From assembly GCF_027944115.1 (NCBI RefSeq), contig NZ_JAPJZI010000001.1, positions 4,030,001 through 4,094,000 on the forward strand: 64,000 nt of DNA, given 5' to 3'. The position numbers and the translations under genes were made by a program. Origin of the DNA: Hoeflea prorocentri (GTDB lineage: Bacteria > Pseudomonadota > Alphaproteobacteria > Rhizobiales > Rhizobiaceae). The notes below the pieces were generated by a model. It searched no databases, was not told where the DNA came from, and saw only the letters and a list, made by a program, of their open reading frames with translations. Numbering within the stretch: position 1 is the first letter of the stretch; every line of letters begins with the position of its first letter. Of this stretch, positions 4,179-13,839 are shown in pieces.

Positions 4179-4925
4179 TTAAACTCTAGCGGCGAAGACG
4201 ACAGTGGTTATCAGACCAATGACCACGATAGTGGCTCTGACGGTATCCTCAGAAAGAAATCTAGCCAGAAGCGCTCCACAATATCCGCCAACAGTTGCCG
4301 CGATCATCATTATGATCGCTTGCGGCCAGTGGACAATGCCGGCCAATGCGAACGTGGCAACGGATGCAGCAGACAAACAAAATGACATGGCATTCTTCAA
4401 CCCGTTCATCTGATTGATATCGCGCAGACCGAGTATCGAAAACACAGCCATGAGAACTATGCCCAAACCTCCATTGAAGTAACCACCATAGGTAGAAACC
4501 ATCAAAACCAACATGTTTCCTGACATACCCTGCGCTTTGAAGTGTCGCTCTGTCCATGTTGCAATCCGCCTGCCAAAAGCAAACAGAAGCGTGGCAAAGC
4601 CGAGCAACCAAGGCACAATGAATGAGAAGACAGCTTCCGGCGTGACCAGCAACAAGAGCGAACCTGCGACACCGCCCACCACGGACAGGCCCAACAAAAC
4701 CGCCAATACATCTCCGCGCATCGTTCGCAGTTCGGAGGTGAAGCCGAGTGCGCCACTCAAATAGCCAGGAAAAACGGCCACCGCGCTGGTTGCGTTCGCC
4801 GCGATGGTGGGCACTCCCGCAAAGACCAGCGCCGGGAATGTTAAGAAACTGCCGCCACCAGCAATCGCGTTCAGACCACCTGCGAGAAACGCAGCTACAC
4901 TGATGAGTAAAGTATCAAACATCAC
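4179..4925 (-). CDS. TauE/SafE-family membrane exporter
   Basis: This is a 248-aa integral membrane protein with about eight hydrophobic segments. The family-typical N-terminal GGLNAIAGGGSFLTFPAL contains the glycine-rich loop conserved in TauE/SafE proteins. Family members export sulfite, sulfoacetate or other small anions. It is the last gene of the five-gene minus-strand operon tctC-tctB-tctA-peptidase-exporter and begins six bases after the peptidase stop. The setting suggests it removes an anionic product released from the imported substrate, but the anion is not determined by sequence. Confidence 0.87.
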   Translation of the reverse strand: MMFDTLLISVAAFLAGGLNAIAGGGSFLTFPALVFAGVPTIAANATSAVAVFPGYLSGALGFTSELRTMRGDVLAVLLGLSVVGGVAGSLLLLVTPEAVFSFIVPWLLGFATLLFAFGRRIATWTERHFKAQGMSGNMLVLMVSTYGGYFNGGLGIVLMAVFSILGLRDINQMNGLKNAMSFCLSAASVATFALAGIVHWPQAIIMMIAATVGGYCGALLARFLSEDTVRATIVVIGLITTVVFAARV

Positions 4926-4930
4926 AGACT

Positions 4931-6184
4931 TCAGGATGCTTCCTGGCTGGCTTTGTGCTTACCTGTCTGTCTTAGGGACATGGATTGGATCAAGGCATGG
5001 GTCAGCTTGAGCGCAGCCACGAGATCTTCTTGGGCAACCTGAGCTCTCATGTCGGCCTCAGTCAGTACGTGGCGCAAACGGCTGTCTGCGTCACCAAAAC
5101 CGGCGATCAACCGCATGGCCGGGATACCGGCAACAGCAAAATTATAATGGTCTGAATTTTTCAACAGCGGCTCATGAACACAGACCGGTATCTCACTTTG
5201 CGCAGCACAGCGCTCCGCCTCTTCTTTCAGCTCGGCAAATGCACTGGTCATCGCACCGAAACGGGTGCTGCCGCCAACGCAGTCGAGGTTGAACACCGCA
5301 CGTATTGCGGCGCGCTTCTCCAGAGAGAGTTTGTCGACATAGGCTTTTGATCCACACAGCCCAAACTCTTCAGCGGAGAAGATCAAAATCCGAACCGTAT
5401 GCGGAAAGTTGGCCACTGTGCACAGCTCTTTGGCCAGAGCCATGATAACTGCAACGCCGGATGCATTATCCATCGCATTTTCAGATGATTCGTGCCCATC
5501 GAGATGGGCACAGACAATGATCTCCTCCGTCGAAAACTCTGGATCAGTCCCCTTTATGGACCAGTCGATTGTTCTGGTTGATGCAGGCGTATGAGCGCTC
5601 TTCATATGGAACTGAACATGTTTGCCTGATTGAGCGGCAGAGCGGAGTGCGTCGCCCGTGAAAGCGCTGACCCCAAAACCTGGCACTGTGCCATGGACAC
5701 TTCCCGATACTCTGCCGGTGGCTGCATCCGGATTGGCTATAATAAATGCGGTCGCTCCAAGCGCTTGCGCGCACTCATATTTCTTCATCCGGTGAACGTG
5801 GTCAGGAGCGAACATGAATTCATGGGTTACAACAACTGCCTTGCCAGCGATTGACGCGCGCAATGCGTTCAGTTCCTCTGGTGTACCCCGTCCCGCGTCA
5901 ACCACCTGCACGCGTGCGCTGTGGTTAGAAAAGGATCCGCTTCGTGGAAGCGCAAATGCATCAAAGCGTTTGTTGTCAATCTCGATCCAGCAGTCTGAAG
6001 AAGACCAACCAGGATAGGAAACACGATGCGTAACCACTTCACCGCAGGGTAGGTTCGAGAAGTAGCCTTCCACATAGTCCAACGCATCAGCCTCACTTTT
6101 GCTTCCGCTGAGACGGCTGCCGAAGTCGCAGATTGCATGGAACATGGACATCAAGTTCATCTGTTTTGAATGTTGCATGAGCAT
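4931..6184 (-). CDS. M28-family zinc metallopeptidase/aminohydrolase
   Basis: This 417-aa hydrolase has the di-zinc ligand set of the M28 family in order: AHLDGHE (His and Asp), DNASGVAV (bridging Asp), SAEEFGLCGS (catalytic and ligand Glu), NLDCVGG (Asp) and a late KNSDHYNF (His). The segment at about 90-200 looks like an inserted PA-type lid, e.g. GKAVVVTHEF. There is no obvious signal peptide, so it is probably cytoplasmic. Several Met codons crowd the N-terminus (1, 3, 9, 12, 14) and no strong ribosome-binding site decides between them. It lies between tctA (gap 4) and the exporter gene (gap 5), so it probably cleaves an amide or peptide bond in the compound imported by TctABC. Confidence 0.82.
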   Translation of the reverse strand: MLMQHSKQMNLMSMFHAICDFGSRLSGSKSEADALDYVEGYFSNLPCGEVVTHRVSYPGWSSSDCWIEIDNKRFDAFALPRSGSFSNHSARVQVVDAGRGTPEELNALRASIAGKAVVVTHEFMFAPDHVHRMKKYECAQALGATAFIIANPDAATGRVSGSVHGTVPGFGVSAFTGDALRSAAQSGKHVQFHMKSAHTPASTRTIDWSIKGTDPEFSTEEIIVCAHLDGHESSENAMDNASGVAVIMALAKELCTVANFPHTVRILIFSAEEFGLCGSKAYVDKLSLEKRAAIRAVFNLDCVGGSTRFGAMTSAFAELKEEAERCAAQSEIPVCVHEPLLKNSDHYNFAVAGIPAMRLIAGFGDADSRLRHVLTEADMRAQVAQEDLVAALKLTHALIQSMSLRQTGKHKASQEAS

Positions 6185-6188
6185 CCAA

Positions 6189-7670
6189 CTAGAATTTGCG
6201 CTTCATGGCTTTGACAATGGGAAACACCGACACAATCAAAGCAAATGCGAACAGCGCAAGCGGAGTTGGCTCGGAATACAACGGCGACCAGTCTCCAGCG
6301 GTTATTTGAAGTCCGGTACGCAGCTTTGCCTCTGCAATCGGCCCGAGAACAAAAGCAATGGCAAAGGGCGCCAATGGATAGTCCAACCATTCCATCAACA
6401 CGCCCAGCCCCCCGAAGGCCAGCATGACCCACAATGACATGGCCGTACCTTCAAGTGCATAAGCACCAATAACGCTGGCAACGATGATGATCGGCAACAA
6501 AAGATAAAGTGGCACTCTCGCAAGCATTGCCAGCCAACGGGCACCTGTCAGAACAAAAAAGGCCATAGCGAGTGTGGCAATGATGTAGGTCGCGATCAGG
6601 CCGTAGGCCAAATCACCACTGTTGACGAACAACATCGGTCCTGGCTGGATCGCGTGAATGGTCAAGGCTGTGAGCAGCAGCACGTCAACCAAACTGCCCG
6701 GCACTCCCAAGGCAAGAGTCGGAATCAAAGCGCCGCCAACAGCTGCATTGTTGGCAGTCTCAGACGCGACAATCCCTTCCTCGGCGCCTTTGCCGAATAT
6801 TTCCGGATTCTTGGAAAAGTTGCGCGCCAGAGTATAGGAGACCACAGAAGCGATATTGGAGCCTATACCCGGCAGAATTCCGACGCCTGTACCGATAGCC
6901 GAACTGCGGATCAGATTGCTTCCGTGCGTCTTCAGATCCTGCAAGCTCAAATTGGCGCCATGGGTGTCCTGCGCCAGTTTTACAGACTTCTTCAGGTGTG
7001 TGCCTCGTACGATGTCACTCAAGACCGCGCCAAAGGCGAACATGCCGACAAAGAAGGGCATGATTTGAATACCTGCGTTCAGCTCCACCATGCCGAATGT
7101 CATGCGCGCTTGTGCCGACGAAGGATCAATACCAGGCAGGGCCAGCAAAAAACCCAAAGCCGCCGCAAGAAGTCCCTTCAAAAGCGCTTTCTCGCTCAGC
7201 GTGACAACAAACGCCAGCGCCAAAATCACCAGGGCAAAATAGTCAAAAGGTGTAAACCGGGTCGCCCAAAGGGAGATTGGTTCGGAAAGCACAGCGAGAA
7301 CAAGCCACGACAACACACCGCCTAAAAGTGATGCCCCAACCGAAAGCGCAATGGCGCGTCGCGCCTTGCCCTGTTGCGCCATGGGGTAACCGTCCAGCAT
7401 TGTCATTAGATTGGAAACGGTGCCCGGCATACGGAGCATAACCGCGGTGATCAATCCGCCGGAAACGCTGCCGACATACACGCCAACAATTGAAGCCACT
7501 GCGTGAAAGGGTTGCATCTGGAACGTCACCGGCAGGAGCAACGCAATCAACATGGCTCCGGTCAGACCCGGGATAGCCCCGACAATGATGCCGACAAGAA
7601 CACCGGCCAATGTCAACGCAAGAGAAATGGGCTCAACAGCAAGCACAAAGCCCTGAAGAAGATCTGACAT
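6189..7670 (-). CDS. tctA: tripartite tricarboxylate transporter, large membrane subunit TctA
   Basis: This 493-aa polytopic membrane protein has the TctA signature features. The N-terminal GVLVGIIVGAIPGLTGAM loop is present. A conserved central GTGVGILPGIGSNIASVVSY segment is followed by ANNAAVGGALIPTLALGVPGS. About twelve hydrophobic segments are visible. With TctB and the periplasmic TctC it forms a secondary, ion-driven uptake system for carboxylate-type solutes. The length is typical of the family. It is two bases downstream of tctB and four bases upstream of the M28 peptidase gene, which ties transport to hydrolysis. The family does not define the substrate. Confidence 0.95.
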   Translation of the reverse strand: MSDLLQGFVLAVEPISLALTLAGVLVGIIVGAIPGLTGAMLIALLLPVTFQMQPFHAVASIVGVYVGSVSGGLITAVMLRMPGTVSNLMTMLDGYPMAQQGKARRAIALSVGASLLGGVLSWLVLAVLSEPISLWATRFTPFDYFALVILALAFVVTLSEKALLKGLLAAALGFLLALPGIDPSSAQARMTFGMVELNAGIQIMPFFVGMFAFGAVLSDIVRGTHLKKSVKLAQDTHGANLSLQDLKTHGSNLIRSSAIGTGVGILPGIGSNIASVVSYTLARNFSKNPEIFGKGAEEGIVASETANNAAVGGALIPTLALGVPGSLVDVLLLTALTIHAIQPGPMLFVNSGDLAYGLIATYIIATLAMAFFVLTGARWLAMLARVPLYLLLPIIIVASVIGAYALEGTAMSLWVMLAFGGLGVLMEWLDYPLAPFAIAFVLGPIAEAKLRTGLQITAGDWSPLYSEPTPLALFAFALIVSVFPIVKAMKRKF

Positions 7671-7672
7671 TT

Positions 7673-8200
7673 TCAGAAACCGGGAAGGGGAAGCGGCAGG
7701 AGTTCGGTAAACACAAAAGCGCAGCCGCCACCGACGCCAATTGAAAGGCCAAATATCAAAAGCCAGTTGCGTTTTCCGACAGGCGCCAATACCGCCATAC
7801 AGCTGAACAGCACAAAGCTTGTCGATATAGCATAAGGCACCAGTGAAAAGACGATGGTGAGGACATAGAGAAAGCTGGCAAGAGCAACCAATAACAACTG
7901 AAATAGTCTCGATTTTTCACCGCTGTAATCGTCGTCCTGCTGAGTGGCGCGGCCGTGGTCTTCACGTTGCAAGAAGTGTTCCGGCTGGTTGCTTCTAATC
8001 AGCGTGGCGGCTGAGCGCAGCATAAGAATAGCCGAAAGAGCAAGTACCAACCAACACAAGATCGACGGAACACTTGACGATGCTAGGAAGTCGAAAGGCG
8101 ATTTCCTGATCGTGCTCAGATCGCTGAGCAACACCACCGAAAGGAGGATTAGGAAACCGCAAAACACAATGTTTGCAATCTCCTTTGTCACATCTGACAT
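7673..8200 (-). CDS. tctB: tripartite tricarboxylate transporter, small membrane subunit TctB
   Basis: This 175-aa protein has four hydrophobic segments, including IVFCGFLILLSVVLLS and LLVALASFLYVLTIVFSL, with a charged central loop, as in TctB proteins. TctB is poorly conserved in sequence and is recognised mainly by size, topology and position between tctC and tctA. ATG 8200 is preferred; a GTG at 8206 would add two residues. The gap from the tctC stop is about eleven bases. It probably stabilises TctA in the membrane. Confidence 0.85.
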   Translation of the reverse strand: MSDVTKEIANIVFCGFLILLSVVLLSDLSTIRKSPFDFLASSSVPSILCWLVLALSAILMLRSAATLIRSNQPEHFLQREDHGRATQQDDDYSGEKSRLFQLLLVALASFLYVLTIVFSLVPYAISTSFVLFSCMAVLAPVGKRNWLLIFGLSIGVGGGCAFVFTELLPLPLPGF

Positions 8201-8211
8201 GAACACCGGTT

Positions 8212-9195
8212 TTATTGTTTCGACAATTTGGCCAAAGGCTCCAGAACTGTCCAGTTGTCGTTAAGGAAACCAGGAAGCTCCGCGCCGTAAACGAAGAGTT
8301 CTGTGCCCCCGATATTGCTGAAGAAGTCTTTCAAACCTCCATCTTGGCGATAGGAAACATCCAAGGCCGCGGCCATTTTTTCCACCACCGCGTCCGGTGT
8401 ATCTTTTGGAGCAAACACCATATGCGGCACGCAAATCGTTTCGCCCGATCCCACATCTGTCATGCTCTCAATGTCAGGCAGGGATTGATGACGGTTTCTG
8501 CCCGTGTATAAAAGCGGCGTGGCCTTTGGCTCTTCCAGCTTTTTGCCCTCTTCGTCATAGAAATAGTCCTTGGCACCGGCAGGGGCGGTCACCATAAGAT
8601 CGATTTGGTTGCCGATAAGGGCAGCATAGGCGTCGGCTGAACCACCGACCTGCACTGCGCGGATTTCGAAACCACCGATCTCTGCAGCTTTCAGCACACC
8701 CATATGACTGGCTCCGCCGATGGTGACCCCGGCAATCAATGGGTCATCACCTTTGGCGGCGGCGATTTCCTTGATCGAGCTCCAACCGGAATCGGCCTTG
8801 CCCACTACCACCAGGCAAACGGAAGACACAGCTGCCACCGGTTTGAGGTCACGATACCCAAAATCTTGGATTCCGGACGCCTCAGCCGTCATGATACCGG
8901 TCTCATGGACCAGAAATTCATATCCATCCGGCTTTGCATCGACAACGCGCCGTGTTCCCACTGAGGAGTGACCTGAAATGTTCAAAACCACAATTTCTTG
9001 CCCCAATTCCTCAGTCAGACCGGGTTCCAGCTTACGAGCTACAAGGTCTGTCAGGCCACCAGCCCGAAATGGCACTACGAGGGTTACGGATTTCTCGGGC
9101 CAAGTCTCGGCTAGGGCCACTTTTGTTCCGGTCACGGTGATTGCAGCTGCCATGAGGGCCGCCAACAGACCGGTGCGCTTTGGAAATCTCATCAT
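8212..9195 (-). CDS. tctC: tripartite tricarboxylate transporter substrate-binding protein TctC
   Basis: This 327-aa periplasmic binding protein begins at ATG 9195, directly after an excellent AGGAGGAC ribosome-binding site. The N-terminus is a signal peptide (basic MMRFPKR, hydrophobic LLAALMAAAITVTG, likely cleavage after ALA at residue 29). The mature protein opens with WPEKSVTLVVPFRAGGLTD, the family-typical PFxAGG(x)xD carboxylate-binding loop. It captures the solute and delivers it to TctA/TctB. As the first gene of the operon it is divergent from the LysR gene at 9289, whose product probably controls it. Confidence 0.93.
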   Translation of the reverse strand: MMRFPKRTGLLAALMAAAITVTGTKVALAETWPEKSVTLVVPFRAGGLTDLVARKLEPGLTEELGQEIVVLNISGHSSVGTRRVVDAKPDGYEFLVHETGIMTAEASGIQDFGYRDLKPVAAVSSVCLVVVGKADSGWSSIKEIAAAKGDDPLIAGVTIGGASHMGVLKAAEIGGFEIRAVQVGGSADAYAALIGNQIDLMVTAPAGAKDYFYDEEGKKLEEPKATPLLYTGRNRHQSLPDIESMTDVGSGETICVPHMVFAPKDTPDAVVEKMAAALDVSYRQDGGLKDFFSNIGGTELFVYGAELPGFLNDNWTVLEPLAKLSKQ

Positions 9196-9241
9196 GTCCT
9201 CCTAGGAAAAAGTCCTTTCAAAAATACGACTGTGAAACCAT

Positions 9242-9273
9242 AATGATAATGAGAAATTTATTACAAATGATAA
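9242..9273. promoter_or_regulatory. direct repeat AATGATAA in the tctC/lysR divergent promoter
   Basis: The 93-base gap between the divergent tctC and LysR genes contains two exact copies of AATGATAA at 9242-9249 and 9266-9273, start-to-start spacing 24 bases. The segment between them is AT-rich. A LysR-type regulator usually binds in such a shared promoter, so this is a candidate operator; no promoter boxes were proven. Confidence 0.4.
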
Positions 9274-9288
9274 CCTGAGGTTAAGGAT

Positions 9289-10167
9289 TTGTCTTTCTAC
9301 CGTCAGATTGAAGTGTTCCGCACTGTCATGACGTCTTCGAGCCTGAGCGCGGCTTCTGGTCGTTTGTTGATCTCTCAGCCAGCAATAACCAAGCAATTGC
9401 GCAATCTAGAAGCCTATGTGGGTACGAAACTTTTTCTGAGAGAAGGCCATCGCCTCCAGCCGACTGAACATGCGCGCCGACTTTTTGAACAATCTGAAGG
9501 CGCTATGGAAAGCATGATGAGCCTTGACCGGTTTGCGCGTTCCCTGGAAGAAAATACCCACGAAACTTTGCGCATCGCAGCGATGCCAATGATTGCCACG
9601 CTCTGGCTACCTCGAAAAATCAATGATCTGTTTAGCCGATATCCGAGCCTCAAAGTGGTCGTGGAAGTCACTAAGTCTTCGCGCATTCTCGACATGGTCG
9701 AAACCGGACAGACCGATATCGGCCTGGGGCTGCCGGTGAGGCCATCGGGTGCCATTATTGCTCACAGACTCCTTGGCAACGAAGCCGTCTGCATTTTCCC
9801 AAAGGGCCACCACCTTGAAAAGAAGGATTATGTCGATCCGGCCGATCTGACCGGAGAAAATTTCATTCTACTGGGCACATTGTTTTATGCCAGCACTGAG
9901 ATCCTCGACCTCTTCGAACAGGAGGGGGTTGCCCCAAAAATAAGAGCTGAAGTCAATTTGGAAGAACTTGCCGTTACAATGGTAGAATCTGGAGCCGGCG
10001 TATCTATTATTGATGCATTCTCGGCAGCCGAACGACAAAAACAAGGCGCAAGTTTTGTTTCCAAACCGTTTAGACCGATTGTCAATATGGATGTCCAAAT
10101 CATGCGCGGCGTCACGTCCAAAAGCCCCGACCTGATCAAGGCGGTGATTGAACACTTTTTGAGCTGA
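9289..10167 (+). CDS. LysR-family transcriptional regulator
   Basis: This 292-aa LysR-type regulator has an N-terminal winged HTH (residues 1-60, including SLSAASGRLLISQPAITKQL) and a two-lobed effector-binding domain. The start is a TTG at 9289 with GAGG eight bases upstream; no in-frame ATG gives a complete HTH. It is transcribed divergently from the tctCBA-peptidase-exporter operon, the standard arrangement for a LysR protein that controls its neighbour in response to the imported compound or a breakdown product. Base composition is AT-richer than the genes beyond 10.3 kb, like the operon it faces. Confidence 0.92.
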   Translation: MSFYRQIEVFRTVMTSSSLSAASGRLLISQPAITKQLRNLEAYVGTKLFLREGHRLQPTEHARRLFEQSEGAMESMMSLDRFARSLEENTHETLRIAAMPMIATLWLPRKINDLFSRYPSLKVVVEVTKSSRILDMVETGQTDIGLGLPVRPSGAIIAHRLLGNEAVCIFPKGHHLEKKDYVDPADLTGENFILLGTLFYASTEILDLFEQEGVAPKIRAEVNLEELAVTMVESGAGVSIIDAFSAAERQKQGASFVSKPFRPIVNMDVQIMRGVTSKSPDLIKAVIEHFLS

Positions 10168-12855: not shown

Positions 12856-13839
12856 GTGTCAAAGCATCAACACAGGGATATCTCATCAAAAGACGCCATA
12901 AGACGGCTGCTTGAGACAGACATCGACAGCTGTCTCGCCCGCGACGGAGAGACCTGGGAGCAATGCTGGGTACAGGACGATCGTTTTCGCAGCTTCATGG
13001 AATGCGGCATGATGCAGATCGCATGGAACTACGAGGAGTTTCGCCAAAACATGTTCGAGGCCTGGGAGGCAGAACCCGAACCGGTTGATGCGGCGGTTCG
13101 GCGCGAGAATCTGAGCATTGAGGTCCATGGCACCCTGGCCTGGGCAACATTCCAGGAAATCGTTGACACCGGCCCCAATCCTCTGGCGGTTCCCAGCCAC
13201 TCGCTTAATTTTCGTCTGCTTGAAAATACTGACGGGCAGTGGCGTATCCTGTTTCACGGCTGCTGGGCCGAGCCGTTGCGCAACAGCGAAGCGCCTGCAA
13301 TAGAAGTTCTTCCGGACGCTCGCGTCGTCTGGCTCAACAGCGCCGCTCAAACCCGATTGAAGACATTTGGCGGACTGACCATCAGCAACGGTAAACTTCG
13401 CGCCTCCCGGCCGTCATTGAACGCCGGGCTGCACAATGCGATTTCTGGAGCGCATAATCTGACCGGTTTCGGAAAATTCAATCAGGCCGCGAGAAATGCC
13501 GGCGGCGACGTAAAATTTCCCGTCGTCCTTGGAGAACAGGATGATGGAGCACTCCTGTTGTGCTGGGTCAAAGTTGCCGATGGCCGTGTTTATATCCTGT
13601 TTGATCACGATCGCGATCTGTCCAGAAACATCGACATAGCGCAAACAATCTACGGTTTGTCTGACGCGCAAACCGAGACTGTGCGACACATTGCACATGG
13701 CATGGATTTGTCAGATACGGCAGCGGCGCTCGGTATTACAAAAAACACCGCACGGACGCATCTTCGGCGCGTCTACGACAAGGTGGGAGTCAGCAGCCAA
13801 ATCGAACTCCTCCGTCTTCTGATCAGTTTCGACAGCTGA
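12856..13839 (+). CDS. LuxR-type regulator with N-terminal NTF2/SnoaL-like domain
   Basis: This 327-aa regulator starts at GTG 12856. The N-terminal 140 residues look like an NTF2/SnoaL-type alpha-plus-beta barrel: a helix DAIRRLLETDIDSCLARD, strands around AWATFQEIVDTG, and WRILFHGCW. A middle PAS-like segment carries ARVVWLNSAAQ. The C-terminal LuxR HTH has LSDAQTETVRHIAHG, AALGITKNTARTHLRRVYDKVG. The sensory part may bind a small molecule, which cannot be named. The gene is convergent with the TPR gene, with no spacer between the stop codons. The HTH shares spacing and the YDK-G motif with the regulator at the window start. Confidence 0.82.
   Translation: MSKHQHRDISSKDAIRRLLETDIDSCLARDGETWEQCWVQDDRFRSFMECGMMQIAWNYEEFRQNMFEAWEAEPEPVDAAVRRENLSIEVHGTLAWATFQEIVDTGPNPLAVPSHSLNFRLLENTDGQWRILFHGCWAEPLRNSEAPAIEVLPDARVVWLNSAAQTRLKTFGGLTISNGKLRASRPSLNAGLHNAISGAHNLTGFGKFNQAARNAGGDVKFPVVLGEQDDGALLLCWVKVADGRVYILFDHDRDLSRNIDIAQTIYGLSDAQTETVRHIAHGMDLSDTAAALGITKNTARTHLRRVYDKVGVSSQIELLRLLISFDS

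Follow-up and report, generated by a model that had tools for sequence, protein, structure and literature searches.

Which compound is handled by an operon that combines a binding-protein-dependent importer, a di-zinc hydrolase and a putative anion exporter? This question is raised by a locus from Hoeflea prorocentri (Rhizobiaceae), analyzed within a window of 64,000 nucleotides (RefSeq assembly GCF_027944115.1, contig NZ_JAPJZI010000001.1, positions 4,030,001 to 4,094,000 of the forward strand; positions given below refer to this window). According to the list of open reading frames (ORFs) of the window, its minus strand carries a run of five co-directional ORFs, extending from 9195 down to 4179 and encoding TctC, TctB, TctA, an M28 hydrolase and a TauE/SafE (TSUP) family protein (Table 1). 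The cassette as a whole may serve, under the control of LysR, to take up a small anionic amide, cleave it in the cytoplasm and export an anion, a proposal that we regard as evenly poised. We lean towards its logic of import, hydrolysis and export; an organosulfur substrate is a tentative suggestion. The plan of such a cassette is already known for other compounds, and this combination of parts is new.

When the DNA was interpreted from its letters only (the sequence-only reading), an importer with its binding protein, a di-zinc hydrolase and a TauE-type exporter were assigned to one operon. This is borne out by Pfam, where each of the operon proteins scores above the curated cut-off, and by the conserved zinc ligands and general base of the hydrolase (see below). 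The limits and the order of the genes were correct as well; the gaps had been given as 2-11 bases and were measured as 5, 2, 4 and 5 bases (TctC/TctB/TctA/M28/TauE, counted from the first start codons). A divergent LysR gene upstream of tctC, which had gone without mention, belongs to the five-gene unit. The GC content at third codon positions of all six genes is 0.53-0.61, compared to 0.705 (standard deviation 0.043) for a further 43 ORFs called in the window. Among eight genomes of the genus, the only carrier of the M28 gene is the window's own genome, and the 297 genomes of the family contain only two other full-length relatives (36-37% identical). By its composition and occurrence, the six-gene cassette looks horizontally acquired.

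For the M28 protein, an alignment with solved aminopeptidases (2ek8, 6hc6) identifies the zinc ligands (H227, D239, E273, D301 and H346) and the general base (E272). All of these residues are invariant in an alignment of 15 relatives. In a wider alignment of 22 relatives, the five zinc ligands are invariant, and E272 is conserved to at least 90%. The protein is thus an M28 member by its residues, and its peptidase activity is predicted. The AlphaFold model (predicted local distance difference test, pLDDT, 92.7) starts straight at the hydrolase domain, and a signal peptide is found neither in the sequence nor in the model, because of which the enzyme is probably cytoplasmic. The top match of the model in VIA-align is BSAP (Z 40.7, root-mean-square deviation (rmsd) 3.7 Å over 384 residues), and enzymes of the glutamate carboxypeptidase II (GCPII) type have Z scores of about 31-33 with an rmsd of 2.1-2.4 Å over 395-400 residues. 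The modelled fold is compatible with peptides or N-acyl amino acids and does not decide between them.

The importer is a TctABC system, with TctA, TctB and TctC encoded by adjacent ORFs. BugD (2f5x) is a sequence relative of TctC in the PDB (E 4e-29). The best Foldseek matches of the TctC model (pLDDT 88.2) are TctC/Bug proteins with carboxylate ligands. A ligand call from the TctC fold was dropped, since the nearest structures hold aspartate, malate, terephthalate, oxoadipate and others. A new clue comes from TctA. Its loci were sampled in rank order, with two added from the organism's own genome, and rows H81-H87 and H90 were inspected among the 25 plasmid rows listed. The resulting tree comprises 54 TctA rows and places the window protein in a clade of 10 (support 100/99). 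Sulfatase-family genes adjoin six of the nine other clade members (from five records), and a seventh is adjacent to genes for TauD and a PF03601 protein (YeiH-type putative sulfate exporter). Such genes thus adjoin 7/9 other rows of the clade, versus 3/44 rows outside it that have them within 5 kb (Fisher p 2.5e-5 by rows and 1.0e-4 by loci, for a test devised after the first loci had been inspected). The motif C-x-P-x-R, which we take to be the formylglycine motif, occurs in six of the seven sulfatases that were read; the seventh ends at the locus boundary. Together, the TctA relatives argue for an organosulfur or an aryl-acid substrate.

The genome codes for its own sulfoacetaldehyde acetyltransferase (xsc, at G000:C1:2367085; 983 bits versus a cut-off of 676), with taurine-like ABC genes downstream, which score below the NCBIfam cut-offs. 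Because xsc is present, a C2 sulfonate set free by M28 could probably be metabolized by the cell, which is compatible with an organosulfur substrate and is no proof of it. The xsc gene is part of a row (L337:7470-15688, corresponding to G000:C1:2365469-2373687) that consists of a MocR-type regulator, xsc, a trimethylamine-methyltransferase-like gene (below the cut-off) and the taurine-like ABC genes. The genome also has five PF00884 sulfatases, two of which adjoin TAXI-TRAP and LysR genes. These two loci (L338, G000:C2:238000-256000; L341, G000:C1:3429000-3447000), with LysR, a TAXI-TRAP importer and a sulfatase-family gene, represent an importer-hydrolase plan built from other parts.

From these data, the following function is proposed. 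LysR would switch on the horizontally acquired catabolic cassette. A small anionic amide would be bound by TctC in the periplasm and imported by TctAB, and the di-zinc M28 enzyme would hydrolyze its amide or peptide-like bond in the cytoplasm. One fragment would enter metabolism, and an anionic product, which would otherwise accumulate, would be expelled by TauE. One candidate is an N-acyl taurine-like compound, with taurine directed to Xsc and sulfite or a sulfonate leaving via TauE. Judged from the relatives of the proteins, small amino acids or amino-sulfonates in N-acylated form are the likeliest substrate class. Among these, an N-acyl amino-sulfonate would reconcile the relatives of TctA (organosulfur or aryl acids) with those of M28 (amino acids).

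Relatives of M28 were examined at 111 loci, which include 15 of the 47 Burkholderiales-type loci; the tree has 112 rows with the window, 104 of them different (near-copies included). M28 hits were obtained in 13 genomes of the family and 38 of the class (the own genome counted in each); apart from the own genome, 2 and 10 of these, respectively, gave full-length matches and were analyzed further. A scan of genome contigs with the single M28 protein gave no relative; with alignment A1, the scan gave 237, of which the best 80 were examined. The phylum search with this alignment gave 2/398 and is little informative, as four candidates were scored per genome. To identify neighbors, single reference proteins were run in phmmer (E 1e-8; 1e-5 in the survey of groups A and B, see below), by which distant relatives are missed. 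A LysR gene is found within 5 kb in 73/111 loci. A polar amino-acid ABC transporter adjoins 47 of the 111 rows; LysR is usually present there as well, and M20 and arginase-family genes are frequent (identities verified in one locus). A same-strand TctC adjoins 29 rows; the remainder is located next to MFS (6) or oligopeptide ABC systems (4) or has other neighbors (25). Apart from the window, TctA was absent within 5 kb in all 111 M28 loci, and neither M28 nor TauE was found in the 46 TctA loci. Hence, the five-gene order, for which a search in other genomes had been suggested, did not turn up; among the loci examined, the complete set is found only in the window.

Two arrangements were noticed in passing in this survey. 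A LysR-M28 pair divergent from a polar amino-acid ABC transporter, an M20 deacylase and an agmatinase/arginase-family gene is widespread (L022, L023, L074-L076 and part of L085-L147). Haloarchaeal plasmids (L020, L021) code for distant M28 relatives (25-29%), located by dipeptide ABC or histidine-degradation genes.

Loci with LysR, TctC and M28 are frequent in a Pollutimonas/Achromobacter-type family. Of 250 genomes from the family to which Pollutimonas nitritireducens belongs, 47 yielded an M28 match. TctC is located beside M28 in 29 of the 30 loci of group A (L169-L198, with flanks of 1.5 kb), the exception (L196) ending at a contig edge, and TauE is present in one. In group B (10 loci), LysR and TctC are found in all ten and TauE in eight; where checked (part of the loci), dienelactone-hydrolase-family and D-amino-acid-dehydrogenase-like genes were also found. 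These clusters share LysR, TctC and M28 with the window, in the same order. They differ in having no TctA within 5 kb (in those of the 111 loci that are of this kind) and in their M28, which belongs to another clade; the aligned TctC proteins are 19-24% and the M28 proteins 33-37% identical to those of the window. Placement of the window M28 in the Bordetella-type TctC-M28 clade was considered and dropped, as its long branch lies outside in a quick tree. Since it lies outside this clade, it was probably combined with TctABC in an independent event. As a side observation, the loci L169-L215 tie an orphan TctC (Bug) to a LysR-TctC-M28 locus and provide a functional lead for some orphan Bugs.

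The TauE protein matches PF01925 with 123.7 bits (cut-off 32.6); a structure search gave no solved relative. Among the TauE relatives found, the nearest has 62% identity and is encoded by the last gene of a plasmid cluster in Roseovarius sp. W115. This cluster resembles the operon in its divergent LysR, binding-protein-dependent importer, metallohydrolase and terminal TauE. It differs in that the importer is a TAXI-TRAP system (binding protein and permease) and the hydrolase is an M20 enzyme, which shares 46% identity with the M20 encoded in the M28/ABC clusters. Hydrolase-linked TauEs (M28 or M20) make up 12 of the 36 rows in the TauE tree, with five label changes, at least two of which are forced by starred branches. 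A single origin of all hydrolase-linked TauEs was dropped on this tree. Because they fall into several separate TauE lineages, repeated recruitment of TauE to hydrolase clusters is likely. Outside hydrolase clusters, the neighbors of TauE relatives showed no coherent theme.

A number of observations weigh against the proposed function. TauE is absent from 104/111 M28 loci, which in part contradicts the expectation of the sequence-only reading that most homologous clusters would contain the exporter. Its role in sulfite or sulfonate export is predicted from the family, and TSUP substrates are poorly known. The neighbors of M28 relatives are weakly informative given the long branch of the window protein; they suggest a link to amino acids, and thus amino-acid release, more than one to sulfur, with sulfur genes within 5 kb in 4/111 loci (one overlapping the M28 ORF). 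The operon itself contains no sulfonate genes, and xsc is 1.67 Mb away. In the TctA clade, two of the nine other rows belong to aryl-acid clusters, and sulfatase-family enzymes can also act on phosphate or phosphonate esters. The earlier guess of an organosulfur compound thus gains from the TctA clade and from xsc and loses by the amino-acid genes beside M28 relatives.

It is possible, if doubtful, that sulfur is not involved at all. The cell would then import an amino acid that is N-acylated or bound in a peptide and may have the D configuration; M28 would free the amino acid, and TauE would export a carboxylate or surplus amino-acid anion. The 47 rows with a polar amino-acid ABC transporter (ABC3-type), with their arginase-family genes and M20 deacylase of the ArgE/DapE type, fit this view, as do the oligopeptide ABC systems by some M28 relatives. 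Also found near such relatives are D-amino-acid dehydrogenase-like (DAO) enzymes, a D-glutamate-cyclase-like gene and a hydroxyaspartate-aldolase-like gene; in L075, a LysE exporter is encoded downstream of M28. The TctA clade of the window, which points to organosulfur or aryl acids, does not fit. In addition, TauE is present in 7/29 TctC-type rows versus 0/47 ABC-type rows (Fisher p 7e-4, a value made optimistic by related rows), and therefore the version with amino-acid transporters does not include the exporter. Oligopeptide systems and the BSAP-like fold and zinc site could also speak for M28 as a general intracellular aminopeptidase acting on imported oligopeptides. This is very unlikely, as TTT (tripartite tricarboxylate transporter) importers characterized so far are described as carrying small acids (PMC5812351), and the rmsd of the M28 model is lower to GCPII-type enzymes than to BSAP.

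The operon might instead be a plain one for the uptake of a carboxylate or aryl acid via TctABC, with M28 and TauE as passengers that have unrelated roles. The two aryl-acid clusters among the closest TctA relatives (L238 and L324, arylmalonate-decarboxylase/mandelate-type), the carboxylates bound by the nearest solved TctC structures and the restriction of the full gene set to the window would agree with this. We consider it improbable in view of the gaps of 2-5 bases, the common foreign composition, and the recurrence of TctC-M28 and TauE-hydrolase pairings elsewhere. There is also a slim chance that TauE does more than expel waste and cooperates with TctC. It would then be the membrane partner of the orphan TctC in LysR-TctC-M28-TauE loci with no TctAB in the vicinity (L092, L150, L199, L202-L208); in the window, where TctAB is present, it would exchange product for substrate.

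The proposed uptake, cleavage and export of an amide can be compared with described systems. In the library searched, no paper was found for TctABC with M28 and TauE, or for a sulfatase with TTT and sulfonate. The earlier statement that no named pathway has this gene set is to be qualified, as the logic recurs with other families in the ANSA-amidase and naa clusters. The former, involved in acesulfame degradation (cluster 2 in Chelatococcus, Bosea and Shinella), is described as containing genes for LysR and TauE/SafE, to which an anion importer is added in Chelatococcus. Its authors infer extracellular amide uptake and cytoplasmic hydrolysis and suggest the removal of sulfamate by TauE (PMC10413263, PMC11500405). 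The window likewise has LysR, an importer and TauE families beside a hydrolase, with M28 as the putative amide-cleaving enzyme. As described there, the ANSA-amidase cluster is found on plasmids and has an Amidase-signature enzyme and an importer other than TctABC, whereas the window has M28 with a PA domain and TctABC.

For N-acetyltaurine, the genes naaRST and an ABC importer (naaABB'CC') are listed for Ruegeria pomeroyi (PMC4334477). Common to both systems are LysR, a binding-protein-dependent importer, a hydrolase (NaaS is an amidohydrolase) and a taurine pathway elsewhere in the genome. This likeness is one of gene content, and the window differs by using TctABC instead of an ABC importer and by having TauE, which is not part of the cluster as listed. 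TTT importers of sulfolactate (SlcHFG) have been reported in a T. muris paper and a review (PMC10507020, PMC5812351) and, by their description, provide a precedent for an organosulfonate as proposed here. SlcHFG is linked to sulfolactate genes, in contrast to the link of TctABC with M28 and TauE.

The features of the cassette are compiled in Table 1. An AGGAGG ribosome-binding site precedes tctC, and the LysR/tctC intergenic region contains a direct repeat of 8 bases (AATGATAA, twice). A promoter or terminator call in this region was dropped, as a scan for promoter-like sequences did no better than chance. Two flanking proteins (53-883 and 12856-13839), judged by eye, have LuxR-type DNA-binding-like C-termini behind sensor-like N-terminal parts.

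Table 1. Features of the cassette, with positions in the window.
Feature	Position	Strand	Size and evidence
TctC periplasmic solute-binding protein (Bug family), N-terminal signal region	8212..9195	-	327 aa; Pfam PF03401, E 8e-21
TctB small membrane subunit	7673..8206	-	177 aa; Pfam PF07331, E 2e-12
TctA large membrane subunit	6189..7670	-	493 aa; Pfam PF01970, E 1e-132
PA-domain M28 di-zinc hydrolase, putatively cytoplasmic	4931..6184	-	417 aa; Peptidase_M28 E 1e-26, PA domain E 2e-6
TauE/SafE (TSUP) membrane anion transporter, presumed exporter	4179..4925	-	248 aa; Pfam PF01925, E 1e-35
LysR-type regulator, presumed operon activator	9289..10167	+	Pfam HTH_1 and LysR_substrate
AT-rich divergent promoter region, LysR/tctC intergenic	9196..9288	.	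93 bases; sequence inspection

The locus adds M28 as a second hydrolase family, and TctABC as an importer, to the few published amide clusters with an import-cut-export plan, and its substrate class is testable. A TctA clade tied to sulfatase and sulfonate genes is now marked out. Orphan Bugs are reported to far outnumber TctAB, for a reason called unclear (PMC5812351). The comparative data connect many orphan TctC (Bug) proteins with one LysR-M28 locus. If TauE and TctC do work together, they would form a new kind of transporter pair that depends on a binding protein, and the orphan Bug problem would be answered in part.

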